Positions 4,025 to 7,786 of a stretch of DNA of 32,256 nt are shown in pieces. The notes below the pieces were generated by a model. It did not search any database, was not told the origin of the DNA, and saw only the letters and a program-made list of their open reading frames with translations. The stretch covers positions 1 to 32,256 of the IMG/VR virus record IMGVR_UViG_3300032285_001673; one strand, written 5' to 3'. The stretch is from a virus. A program made the translations under genes and the position numbers. The stretch's first letter is position 1. Each line of letters opens with the position of its first letter.

Positions 4025-4419
4025 TTGACACCTTTAAGCATTTTCAACCCAGCCAGCATTTCCGCAATCTGCTTTCGGGCTTCCTCGCCTCTGCTCTTTT
4101 CCTCGGCCAGTTCTGCCTGCGTTTTCTGCCTGGTGATTTGCGTGTTTGGTTTCTCAGGAATTGGCGGTCCCTCGCTCAACAGCTTCGCAAACTGCAGGGC
4201 CGACGGTGGGCGATCGGGGCTGATGTATTGCAGGGCGTAATCCATCTTTGGCCGGTAGGATAGTCCTGGCGAACAAACTTCCTTCCAGGTCTGGCGCACA
4301 ACCTCGGCATCGACGTTTGCCCAATGGTACTCAAACGCTGCGCCATAGATCGCGTGCATTCGCGCGAAGCAATACTCAAATCCCGAATCGGCATCGCAAA
4401 AATCATTTGGATTCCACAT
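4021..4419 (-). CDS. Lambda P-like replication protein (probable helicase loader)
   Basis: A 132-residue protein. Residues 18-82 read FARMHAIYGAAFEYHW ... QTWKEVCSPGL ... MDYALQYI ... RPPSALQFAKLL, the pattern of the lambda replication protein P family, in which a short helical domain ends in a P-P-S-x2-x-F motif. The rest (about 95-132) is a charged helix. Lambda P brings the host DnaB helicase to the initiator at the origin. The gene directly follows, and overlaps by 17 nt, the initiator gene, exactly as P follows O in lambda, and it has a GGAGG ribosome-binding site 6 nt before the ATG. It is shorter than lambda P (233 residues), so the loader role is likely but not certain. Confidence 0.65.
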   Translation of the reverse strand: MWNPNDFCDADSGFEYCFARMHAIYGAAFEYHWANVDAEVVRQTWKEVCSPGLSYRPKMDYALQYISPDRPPSALQFAKLLSEGPPIPEKPNTQITRQKTQAELAEEKSRGEEARKQIAEMLAGLKMLKGVK

Positions 4420-5149
4420 TCAAAACCTCCGTTTTTGGTAACCAAAATGCTTTGGGCTTTGGAACAGACAAACCACTCGTCAATTCTGCCATCTGATCGC
4501 GGCGCTGCTCTGATGCAACTTTTTTGGGCGCCTGCTGCCGCCTGACCCAGTTGCGCCAGGTGGCTTCCCAATCGGTCTTGACGCCCTTCTGGCCAGGCTG
4601 GGCAACCCAGTAATCGCGGAACTGCTCAAATGTCTCTTGCGGGTTAAGTTCCGGCCGAGTCTGGCTGCAGAACTCAACCCATGTTTGCGGAAATTCAAAG
4701 AGGTTGTGCAGGCGCGTCCCGCGCTGCATCTCTCTCTTTTTCTTTTGGTTAGTGGTTAGTGGTTGTTGGTTAGTGGTTAGTTGAACAGCAGTCGAACACT
4801 CGTTCAACACCTGTTCAACACCTGTTGAACTACTGTTCTTGCGTCGTTCAGCAGATGCTCGACCGGCGTTGGATTTCTTGTCCAAAAACGATCGGTAAGC
4901 ATCGATTTCCTGGTCGCAACGCGACTGATGCCAACCGTCATCTTTGAGCGTAAAAAAAGTTATCAACAGAAGTTCGACGTCTTCCTGGCTGGCCCCCAGC
5001 TGGAACGACAGAATCTTCGAGTTGTCCGGCAGCGGCCGCTCGCTGTCGTAGTACATCCAAAGCATTCGCAGGTAGGCCATGGTCTGGCCGTCAGTCATGC
5101 GAGCGGTGGCTTTGATAAAGTCACCAATATGGTGCTGGTAGTAGTGCAT
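4403..5149 (-). CDS. DUF1376-type replication initiator
   Basis: Start taken at the ATG preceded by an AAAGGGG ribosome-binding site, giving 248 residues beginning MHYYQHHIGDF; an ATG 23 codons earlier (5218) is possible but poorly supported. Residues 1-90 form the DUF1376 domain (MAYLRMLWMYYDSERPLP, FFTLKDDGWHQSRCDQEI), a winged-helix-like domain of phage replication proteins. Residues 100-134 are a Ser/Thr/Gln-rich linker whose DNA carries the repeat arrays. The C-terminal part ends FRDYWVAQPGQKG...DWEATWRNWVRRQQ, typical of phage O-like and DnaT-like proteins. Two domains joined by a linker that contains the origin is the layout of lambda O. The gene lies between the Cro-like and the P-like genes. 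Confidence 0.82.
   Translation of the reverse strand: MHYYQHHIGDFIKATARMTDGQTMAYLRMLWMYYDSERPLPDNSKILSFQLGASQEDVELLLITFFTLKDDGWHQSRCDQEIDAYRSFLDKKSNAGRASAERRKNSSSTGVEQVLNECSTAVQLTTNQQPLTTNQKKKREMQRGTRLHNLFEFPQTWVEFCSQTRPELNPQETFEQFRDYWVAQPGQKGVKTDWEATWRNWVRRQQAPKKVASEQRRDQMAELTSGLSVPKPKAFWLPKTEVLNVESK
4747..4781. repeat. Five tandem 7-bp repeats (GGTTAGT)
   Basis: Five head-to-tail heptamers: four exact GGTTAGT and one variant GGTTGTT (third copy, 4761-4767). It can also be read as a 21-bp duplication giving the peptide pair LTTNQ-QP-LTTNQ. The other strand is the A-rich motif ACTAACC. The block directly abuts the 11-bp-phased array and lies in the linker region of the replication initiator gene, so it may be part of the origin, for example an unwinding or primer-start element. 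That role is inferred. Confidence 0.8.
4780..4852. other. Putative replication origin: 11-bp-phased iteron array
   Basis: Seven related 7-mers begin exactly 11 bp apart, at 4780 GTTGAAC, 4791 GTCGAAC, 4802 GTTCAAC, 4813 GTTCAAC, 4824 GTTGAAC, 4835 GTTCTTG and 4846 GTTCAGC. GTTCAAC and GTTGAAC are reverse complements, so the sites alternate in orientation; the sixth is the weakest. Two copies form an exact 11-bp tandem repeat (GTTCAACACCT). One helical turn per site puts all sites on the same face of the helix, as expected for cooperative protein binding. Eleven is not a multiple of three, so the array cannot be explained as a peptide repeat. Its place inside the initiator gene matches the lambda origin within O. 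Confidence 0.7.
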
Positions 5150-5244
5150 CGATTCCCCTTTCCGTCCTTCCCAAGGAAACAACGGCAGGCGGGAAGGCTC
5201 GCTTTTCGGTTGGCTCATGACTTCCAACCTAGCCGTGTCTCACA

Positions 5245-5406
5245 TCAGTTTACCTTGAACCAGCCAGGGCGCAAGGTCATCAGCTGCCAAACCCTTGCCT
5301 GGGGTACCTGGTCGCCCCACTGGCTCACTGCTGCCCTGGTGATGCCCAACAGTTCGGCCAGGGCCTTGGCCGAGCCTGCAAGTTTGATCGCGTGGTTTTT
5401 GTCCAT
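5245..5406 (-). CDS. cro: Cro-like transcriptional repressor
   Basis: A 53-residue protein, first gene of the long leftward operon. It contains a single helix-turn-helix: AKALAELLGITRAAVSQWG (about residues 13-31), with TRAAVSQW as the recognition helix. The A-x2-LGI-x2-AAVSQW pattern and the following V-P position match the Cro proteins of the P22 type (61 residues) closely. Cro binds operators at the early promoters and turns them down. Here operator-like sites cover both divergent promoters just upstream. The -10 element of its promoter lies so close that the mRNA would begin at the AUG itself. The gene is followed by the initiator and P-like genes, as cro precedes O and P in lambdoid phages. 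No CI partner is found. Confidence 0.82.
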   Translation of the reverse strand: MDKNHAIKLAGSAKALAELLGITRAAVSQWGDQVPQARVWQLMTLRPGWFKVN

Positions 5407-5412
5407 CCTATG

Positions 5413-5441
5413 ATGTTAAGCGGTCTTGCTGCTGCCGTCAA
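5413..5441 (-). promoter_or_regulatory. Leftward early promoter (PR-like), apparently leaderless
   Basis: Read on the minus strand: TTGACG (5441-5436), a 17-bp spacer, then TAACAT (5418-5413). The expected start, 7 nt beyond the -10, falls on position 5406, the A of the cro ATG. There is no room for a leader or ribosome-binding site. The -10 shares the sequence GCTTAACAT with the opposing rightward promoter. It would drive cro, replication and probably the whole leftward set. Confidence 0.7.
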
Positions 5442-5452
5442 CCTGCCTTGCG
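5415..5452. promoter_or_regulatory. Operator pair over the leftward promoter
   Basis: Two 16-bp sites of the form half-site, 4 bp, inverted half-site, starting 22 bp apart. The first is GTTAAG-CGGT-CTTGCT at 5415-5430 and overlaps the -10. The second, weaker, is GTCAAC-CTGC-CTTGCG at 5437-5452 and overlaps the -35. Against GTTAAG-N4-CTTGAC they match 10 of 12 and 8 of 12 arm positions. Likely bound by the Cro-like dimer. Confidence 0.55.
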
Positions 5453-5481
5453 TGTGCGCGAAAGCAACAACGAAAAAAGTT

Positions 5482-5519
5482 GTTAAGATGGCTTGACAAG
5501 ATAGTTCAGGCGGCTTAAC
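5482..5519. promoter_or_regulatory. Operator pair over the rightward promoter
   Basis: Two 16-bp near-palindromes starting 22 bp apart: GTTAAG-ATGG-CTTGAC at 5482-5497, whose right arm overlaps the -35, and GTTCAG-GCGG-CTTAAC at 5504-5519, which overlaps the -10. Arms and spacing match the pair at the opposing promoter. Probable binding sites for the Cro-like repressor. Confidence 0.65.
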
Positions 5520-5521
5520 AT
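5493..5521 (+). promoter_or_regulatory. Rightward early promoter (PL-like)
   Basis: A perfect -35 TTGACA (5493-5498), a 17-bp spacer and -10 TAACAT (5516-5521, four of six consensus positions). The start would be near 5528, leaving a leader of about 43 nt before the first gene of the recombination operon. Both elements are covered by operator-like sites. Confidence 0.75.
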
Positions 5522-5570
5522 TCAGTCATGCCGTAGCGCATCGCAAGCGGTCTTTCGAAGGAAGTCAAAA

Positions 5571-5831
5571 ATGATCAAACTGATGAAACACTACGTTACC
5601 AACGGCGCCGTAAAGGCTCGGGTTTGGTACTCACGCAACCATTTAGTCGACGGTCGGGATTGCGTGACAATTTACGCCAAAGATTACGACGGCGCCCTGG
5701 GTCGCGTGTTTGCCAATCATGGCATTTACAAAAACGACACCGACACAATGACCGACTATTTTGATAAAGGGCTTGTGCGTGTTTTTGACGACAACCCACT
5801 GTGGTCCGCTGCTTGCGCCCGCGCCGCATAA
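5571..5831 (+). CDS. First gene of the rightward early operon, unknown function
   Basis: An 86-residue protein I do not recognise. It begins MIKLMKHYVTNGAVKARVWY, with alternating polar and non-polar residues suggesting beta strands, followed by RDCVTIYAKDYDGALGRVF and an acidic middle (NDTDTMTDYFDKG). It has an AAGGAAG ribosome-binding site. Its place directly behind the early promoter is where lambda keeps N, but it lacks the Arg-rich N-terminus of N proteins, so an antiterminator role is not supported. Host-takeover proteins are common at this place; nothing more can be said. Confidence 0.65.
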   Translation: MIKLMKHYVTNGAVKARVWYSRNHLVDGRDCVTIYAKDYDGALGRVFANHGIYKNDTDTMTDYFDKGLVRVFDDNPLWSAACARAA

Positions 5832-6431: not shown

Positions 6432-7007
6432 ATGGAAAATTTTGCAAAAATTGCTGGCGCGTTGGTTAAGGCTCAAAAGGCTTTCGGCCCCGCGCTAAAG
6501 TCCAGCAGCAATCCACACTTTCGCAGCAAGTACGCAGACTTGTCTGCCTGCGTCGAGGCCGTCATCGACGCTCTTAACGACAATGGCATCGCGCTCACGC
6601 AGCAAGTACACCCTTGCGACAACGGCGTGATTGTGGAGACGGTCTTCATCCACGAAAGCGGCGCCACCATGTCTTGCGGCCAGCTGCACGTCCCAGCAAC
6701 TAAACAGGACGCGCAGGGTTACGGCAGCGCTTTGACCTACGCTCGTCGCTACTCGTTGATGGCTGCCTGCGGCATTGCGCCCGAGGATGACGATGGCAAC
6801 GCTGCGTCACGCAAGACGCAAACCGTTGACGTGACCGATTACGTTGCTTGCATCGAGGCCACCGAAAACAGCGAGGAACTGGCCAAGGTTTACCAGGAAG
6901 CAATCAAATACTGCGGCGCTGACCAGGCCGCGCAGGCCAAAGTAATCGCAGCCAAAAAATCCCGCATTGAACGCGCAAAAAAGGAACTGAAAAAAAATGA
7001 AACTTGA
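6432..7007 (+). CDS. erf: Erf-family single-strand annealing protein
   Basis: A 191-residue protein with the ERF family signature: SSNPHFRSKYADLSACVEAV (residues 25-44), NGIALTQQ (51-58), and GYGSALTYARRYSLMAACGIAPEDDDGNAA (about 96-125), the longest conserved block. Erf proteins anneal complementary single strands and circularise or recombine phage DNA after infection; P22 Erf (about 204 residues) is the type member. The C-terminal 60 residues are variable and Lys-rich, as in other members. It sits with a YqaJ-type exonuclease, forming the usual two-component phage recombination pair (annealer plus 5'-3' exonuclease). The ribosome-binding site is GAGGA. Confidence 0.9.
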   Translation: MENFAKIAGALVKAQKAFGPALKSSSNPHFRSKYADLSACVEAVIDALNDNGIALTQQVHPCDNGVIVETVFIHESGATMSCGQLHVPATKQDAQGYGSALTYARRYSLMAACGIAPEDDDGNAASRKTQTVDVTDYVACIEATENSEELAKVYQEAIKYCGADQAAQAKVIAAKKSRIERAKKELKKNET

Positions 7008-7161
7008 AATCACCACCGCAGAAATTAGGGAAGCAATCCTTGACTACTACAACAAAAAACTAGGGACGGAATTCAACGATGTTGACTTTTGTTACAACAC
7101 TCCAGTTCGCGCCTCGTTAATCAAACTTTTGCCGGAGTCAAACAATGACGAACCAAATTGA
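6997..7161 (+). CDS. Small protein overlapping the Erf and exonuclease genes
   Basis: A 54-residue acidic protein starting inside the last codons of Erf (AAAAAAATGA) and ending 17 nt into the exonuclease gene. It reads MKLEITTAEIREAILDYYNKK (helical), then GTEFNDVDFCYNTP and RASLIKLLPES. An AAGGA sequence in the end of Erf lies at acceptable distance before the ATG. Without it the gap between Erf and the nuclease would be 137 nt, long for this operon. Unrecognised; possibly translated only to couple its neighbours. Confidence 0.55.
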   Translation: MKLEITTAEIREAILDYYNKKLGTEFNDVDFCYNTPVRASLIKLLPESNNDEPN

Positions 7162-7786
7162 ACAACGAACGGAAGATTGGTTTGCCGATCGCCTGGGCAA
7201 AGTGACGGCCAGTCGCGTCGCTGACGTTATGGCGCGTACCAAGTCGGGCTACGGTGCCAGCCGCGACGCCTATATGGCGCAGCTGGTCGTCGAGCGAATT
7301 ACAGGCGAACGCGCAGATTCCTACACCAACGCAGCGATGCAATGGGGTATCGACCAGGAACCGTTCGCCAGGGCCGCATATGAGGCCGCCAGGGGCGTTT
7401 TGGTTGAGGAAGTAGGGTTTGTGCCTTGCCCGCACCTTGAAAACGCTGGCGCCTCTCCTGATGGGCTTGTAGGGTCTGACGGCCTGGTCGAGATCAAATG
7501 CCCCAACACGGCTACGCAAATCGAAATGCTGCTCGAAGAAACGATCCCTGCCAAATACCTGCTGCAAATGCAATTCCAAATGTCTTGCACGGGTCGACAG
7601 TGGTGCGATTTTGTGTCGTTCGATCCTCGGATGCCCGAAAACGCGCAGCTGTTCATCAAACGCATCGAGCGGGACAACGACAAGATCGACGAGATCGAAA
7701 CCGAGATTCTCAAATTCCTGCTCGAGGTCGACGCCAAGGTTCTGCAACTCAAGTCCATTGTTCTAAAACAAATCATCGGAGAATAA
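7145..7786 (+). CDS. YqaJ/lambda Exo-type recombination exonuclease
   Basis: A 213-residue protein of the YqaJ viral recombinase family. It begins with the family's RTEDWFADRLGKVTASR block (residues 8-24), continues with MQWGIDQEPFARAAYE (65-80) and has the catalytic core ASPDGLVG...GLVEIKCP, in which D106, E116 and K118 correspond to the metal-binding PD-(D/E)xK residues. A Q-M-Q-F-Q-M helix follows, also typical. Lambda Exo (226 residues) degrades the 5' strand of double-stranded ends as a ring-shaped trimer and hands the 3' tail to the annealing protein. Here that partner is the Erf protein encoded just upstream. Family assignment is firm. Confidence 0.9.
   Translation: MTNQIEQRTEDWFADRLGKVTASRVADVMARTKSGYGASRDAYMAQLVVERITGERADSYTNAAMQWGIDQEPFARAAYEAARGVLVEEVGFVPCPHLENAGASPDGLVGSDGLVEIKCPNTATQIEMLLEETIPAKYLLQMQFQMSCTGRQWCDFVSFDPRMPENAQLFIKRIERDNDKIDEIETEILKFLLEVDAKVLQLKSIVLKQIIGE

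Follow-up and report, generated by a model that had tools for sequence, protein, structure and literature searches.

The intergenic stretch described here probably controls the early genes of a P22-type podovirus that has lost its CI repressor, and in which a 53-residue Cro protein would turn down both early operons. The window, which is the whole stretch of DNA analysed (the linear, 32,256-base virus record IMGVR_UViG_3300032285_001673), carries genes for a P22-type portal, coat, scaffold, head-closure and terminase on its minus strand. In particular, the cro-like gene (5245-5406, minus strand) is the first gene of a leftward early operon, and a primosomal-type replication protein (DUF1376; 4403-5217, minus strand) is the second. 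The rightward early operon begins with a gene at 5571-5831 (plus strand), whose sole match is weak (phrog_18717), and includes an Erf-type single-stranded DNA annealing protein (6432-7007, plus strand; PF04404, E = 2.1e-22; phrog_2324) and a YqaJ-type exonuclease (7145-7786, plus strand; PF09588, E = 2.2e-27). The start codons of cro and of the rightward operon are separated by 164 bp of intergenic DNA. Two features of a lysis-lysogeny switch are present, as cro leads into replication genes and predicted operators lie over the early promoters.

Elsewhere on the minus strand, an open reading frame of 311 residues (1356-2291) encodes a kinase domain of the Zeta-toxin type (PF06414, E = 3e-14), and the stretch at 2490-2852 matches DUF5856 and a PHROG named starvation-inducible transcriptional regulator.

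Divergent promoters and putative operators

On sequence grounds, both early promoters are real. The cro promoter (5413-5441, minus strand) has a -35 element TTGACG (5441-5436) and a -10 element TAACAT (5418-5413), with an expected start at 5406; the rightward early promoter (5493-5521, plus strand) has a -35 element TTGACA (5493-5498) and a -10 element TAACAT (5516-5521), with an expected start at about 5528. Both are sigma70-type, scoring 9/12 and 10/12 against the consensus, respectively, and the spacer is 17 bp in each. The original prediction had described back-to-back early promoters with an identical -10 element under a Cro-like protein; its coordinates are right, and this part of it is well supported. 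It had also described a nearly symmetric control region, a symmetry that stems in part from the identical -10 elements and equal spacers of the promoters.

Four operators had been proposed, two per promoter and 22 bp apart. Scored against GTTAAG-N4-CTTAAC over 12 positions, the site over the rightward -35 (GTTAAGATGGCTTGAC, 5482-5497) and the site over the rightward -10 (GTTCAGGCGGCTTAAC, 5504-5519) each have one mismatch, the site over the cro -10 (GTTAAGCGGTCTTGCT, 5415-5430) has three, and the site over the cro -35 (5437-5452) has five. The 5482 and 5504 sites are the only ones in the 32,256 bp with at most one mismatch, and in none of 5000 dinucleotide-shuffled versions of the 164-bp intergenic stretch was a pair of such sites found; two palindromes with any common arm were found in 1 of 1000 shuffles. 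Four sites with up to five mismatches are present in 18% of the intergenic shuffles, and about 1% of all positions in the window score no worse than 5437.

In each site, the CTTRAC half is itself a promoter element (-35 cTTGACa, -10 ctTAACat), a confound that the prediction overlooked. The 22-bp spacing of the sites is a consequence of the 17-bp promoter spacer, and only the other half-sites therefore count as independent evidence. These halves are strong on the right side (GTTAAG and GTTCAG) and weak by themselves on the cro side (AGCAAG and CGCAAG), where the 5415 site of the window is weakly palindromic. Three putative operators, not four, are supported by the sequence comparison; the arrangement of two per promoter at 22 bp stands for the rightward side of this genome only, and fails on the leftward side, where 5437 was rejected as a chance-level match that is not conserved. 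The 22-bp spacing was likewise rejected as a sign of cooperative binding, both for the promoter-spacer confound and for the 36-37 bp found in relatives.

Site conservation across relatives

A scan of IMG/VR yielded 66 loci with the Cro gene, the first 50 of which are close relatives; removing near-identical regions left 25 sequences including the window, and hence 24 non-redundant relatives. The 5415 and 5504 sites are retained in most of these 24. At the cro -10 site, the core AAG-N4-CTT is exact in 23 of the 25 sequences with 12 different spacers, and such fixed arms around a free spacer are the mark of a dyad operator. The core of the rightward -10 site has at most one mismatch in most relatives, and the palindrome is complete in L011 and L050; in the L040/L041 group, a clear rightward site is missing. 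Measured from the rightward -10 site, the third one lies at 22 bp in the window and in L029, at 23 bp in the near-identical L001, and at 36-37 bp (about 3.5 turns) in most other relatives, where it falls outside any promoter element. This shift between 22 and 36-37 bp counts against a clear role for the third site, which may act through coverage of the -35 in the window and perhaps differently at 36-37 bp. Apart from a strong pair of L042's own at its cro promoter, 21-22 bp apart, no counterpart of 5437 is present at that place in the 24 non-redundant relatives, and it is retained only in the nearest relative, L001.

Further, in L031 and L033 a TGTAAG half replaces GTTAAG in all three sites, and both -10 elements change too; this joint change suggests that a single protein reads all three sites. 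L032 has the recognition helix of L031 with GTTAAG sites, so the code between protein and site is loose, and strict covariation of operator and recognition helix was rejected on the same evidence. As a separate observation, CTAGGTACTTTCCCTAAT occurs without change in two otherwise dissimilar phages, in each case between the divergent genes: L050 (about -75 to -55 upstream of cro) and L079 (about 280-305).

A probably leaderless cro mRNA

The distance from the end of the cro -10 element to the ATG is 6 nt in 19 of the 25 sequences, 7 nt in five and 5 nt in one, and none of the 25 has a Shine-Dalgarno sequence before cro. With this distance and no Shine-Dalgarno, the transcript should begin at the AUG. 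The start that had been predicted, 5406, coincides with the A of the cro ATG and so points to a leaderless message, a conclusion that the prediction did not draw; judging from these distances, the cro mRNA is probably leaderless. The cro mRNA of phage PY54 was shown by RACE to be leaderless (PMC4488713), as predicted here. PY54 differs from the window in other respects: it is a temperate telomere phage with CI, whereas the window has no detectable CI; PY54 Cro occupies one operator only and is not autorepressing (PMC4488713), whereas three sites are predicted and self-repression is proposed here.

Relation to P22 Cro

The 53-residue protein is a P22-type Cro, scoring 50.1 bits against PF14549 P22_Cro (E = 2.3e-13; curated cut-off 30.2), and the nearest solved structure by sequence match is P22 Cro (1RZS, E = 5.7e-5). 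It also exceeds the cut-off of PF15943 YdaS, with a weaker score of 35 bits. The P22 record (AY121863) contains GTTAAGTCATCTTAAA and TTTAAGTGTTCTTTAA, sites of this type, upstream of cro; the pattern GTTAAG-N4-CTTAAA is present in this region. P22 and the window have in common a Cro from one Pfam family that includes the segment AAVSQW, sites of the TTAAG-N4-CTTAA operator type (one P22 site being GTTAAGTCATCTTAAA), and a cro gene that leads into replication genes. In contrast, P22 encodes its CI (c2) opposite cro and has OR and OL as distinct regions, whereas the window has no CI between its promoters and its two early promoters are back to back; the window's Cro is also shorter (53 versus 61 residues). 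The P22 erf gene sits in the other early operon, like the erf of the window.

Lysogeny genes

Two other features of a lysis-lysogeny switch, a CI-type repressor opposite cro and an integrase, were not found in the window. In particular, profiles for tyrosine integrase (PF00589), serine recombinase/resolvase (PF00239) and the S24 (CI-type) repressor gave no match in the window or in its long relatives, and within the window HTH_3 picks out Cro alone. Among the relatives, a second, weak HTH_3 match is present in the 42-kb record behind L044. As a positive control, four more distant temperate relatives score for both integrase and S24 repressor, with a distance of 96-122 bp between the start of the S24 gene and cro. 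As the window is linear and may be incomplete, the evidence for an absence of lysogeny genes is strong without being final.

Circular genomes extend the comparison. MW202520 and MW202674 have cro opposed to an erf operon with TAAG-type sites between them; no S24 repressor was found in either, and no tyrosine integrase was found by profile in MW202674 or in the annotation of MW202520. Moreover, the circular MW202674 and MW202462 have no match to integrase, resolvase or S24 repressor. MW202674 and MW202520 are uncultured podoviruses with a P22-type portal (63% identical), and differ from the window in showing two sites only and a more distant Cro. A literature search found no study on the regulation of either genome, and none of a Cro-only phage within a coverage that excluded most subscription journals. 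Two candidate cultured cases were rejected, MEP301, which has the erf gene, and P26218, which has a P22-type portal, as neither has a P22_Cro match; a prophage source was also set aside, with one distant match only among the matches listed from the genome collection.

Alternative explanations

The repeats could be imagined to arise from promoters alone. Twin promoters with the same -10 element and the same 17-bp spacer would by themselves yield CTTAAC/CTTGAC repeats and a 22-bp spacing; one half of every site is indeed a promoter element, the spacing equals that of the promoters, and 5437 is accounted for. The same account leaves unexplained the non-promoter halves GTTAAG and GTTCAG, the failure of all 5000 shuffles to produce two such sites, the AAG-N4-CTT core kept in 23 of 25 sequences around free spacers, and a third site that in most relatives is found at a distance of 36-37 bp, clear of the promoter elements. 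We consider it improbable that there are no operators. It is improbable to an even greater degree that a host regulator reads the sites and that the Cro-like protein is otherwise employed, for example as a relative of YdaS-like toxins: the protein does exceed the YdaS cut-off, but with 35 bits versus 50 bits for P22_Cro, the same type of site is present at P22 cro, and the sites and the cro gene travel together across relatives.

A normal lysis-lysogeny switch, its CI-type repressor gene lying at another genomic position or absent from the record, is unlikely, although it is the least remote of these three alternatives. In its favour, more distantly related Cro proteins belong to temperate viruses that have CI opposite cro, and a linear record may lack part of its genome. 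However, CI would be expected between the promoters, where the stretch is complete and only 164 bp long; the window, its long relatives, MW202674 and MW202462 contain no detectable integrase, resolvase or S24 repressor, and HTH_3 matches only Cro in the window.

Proposed circuit

The reading that we prefer is that CI (P22 c2) was lost from the immunity region, which would have left the cro and recombination promoters back to back. The cro promoter, upstream of the replication genes, would be PR-like, and the recombination promoter, upstream of erf and yqaJ, would be PL-like; both would be fired by host RNA polymerase after infection. The 53-residue Cro would be made from its leaderless mRNA, and we infer that a Cro dimer would bind the TAAG-N4-CTTA sites over each -10 element (5415 and 5504) and also the third site, which covers the rightward -35 in this genome (5482). 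As Cro builds up, both operons would be turned down, its own operon with the replication functions and that of Erf/YqaJ recombination. With the usual lysogeny repressor and integrase missing, Cro seems to have been kept for lytic growth alone. P22-type Cro and its operator set are the known part of the circuit, and the CI-less, collapsed immunity region is the variant part.

With somewhat less confidence, the balance tilts towards a broader reading: a widespread P22-like aquatic clade would have given up CI and integrase, leaving Cro as the sole repressor of both early operons, with back-to-back promoters over shared operators and a leaderless cro, as a minimal self-limiting circuit for obligate lysis. 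In lambda biology, the purpose of Cro beyond opposing CI is an old question. A clade in which Cro and its operators have outlasted CI and integrase suggests that lytic growth benefits from the damping of early genes as such. The clade offers a two-promoter, three-site circuit for testing this lytic role, and the relatives provide a natural series in which each Cro comes with its own operators; the interest of the system, which we regard as moderate, lies in this isolation of Cro's lytic role.

Rightward leader

A hairpin is predicted at the 5′ end of the rightward leader (5531-5550, plus strand), with 93% of cells paired; across 13 sequences, one stem pair is G-C in seven and C-G in six. The hairpin is kept in relatives, where it is often followed by TCTTTT, and it could serve in mRNA-end protection, attenuation or protein binding. 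The predicted start of the rightward mRNA (5528-5536, plus strand) reads ATG CCG TAG, and ATG CCS followed by TAG, TAA or TGA is found at the same place in 9 of 13 relatives in the leader alignment; this motif may be a by-product of the hairpin. Finally, an AAG-N4-CTT match at 5540-5557 (AAGACCGCTT) has the same ten core bases as the 5415 site and overlaps the 3′ arm of the hairpin; because its CTT becomes CGT in relatives with a CCC/GGG stem, this match is probably a coincidence.
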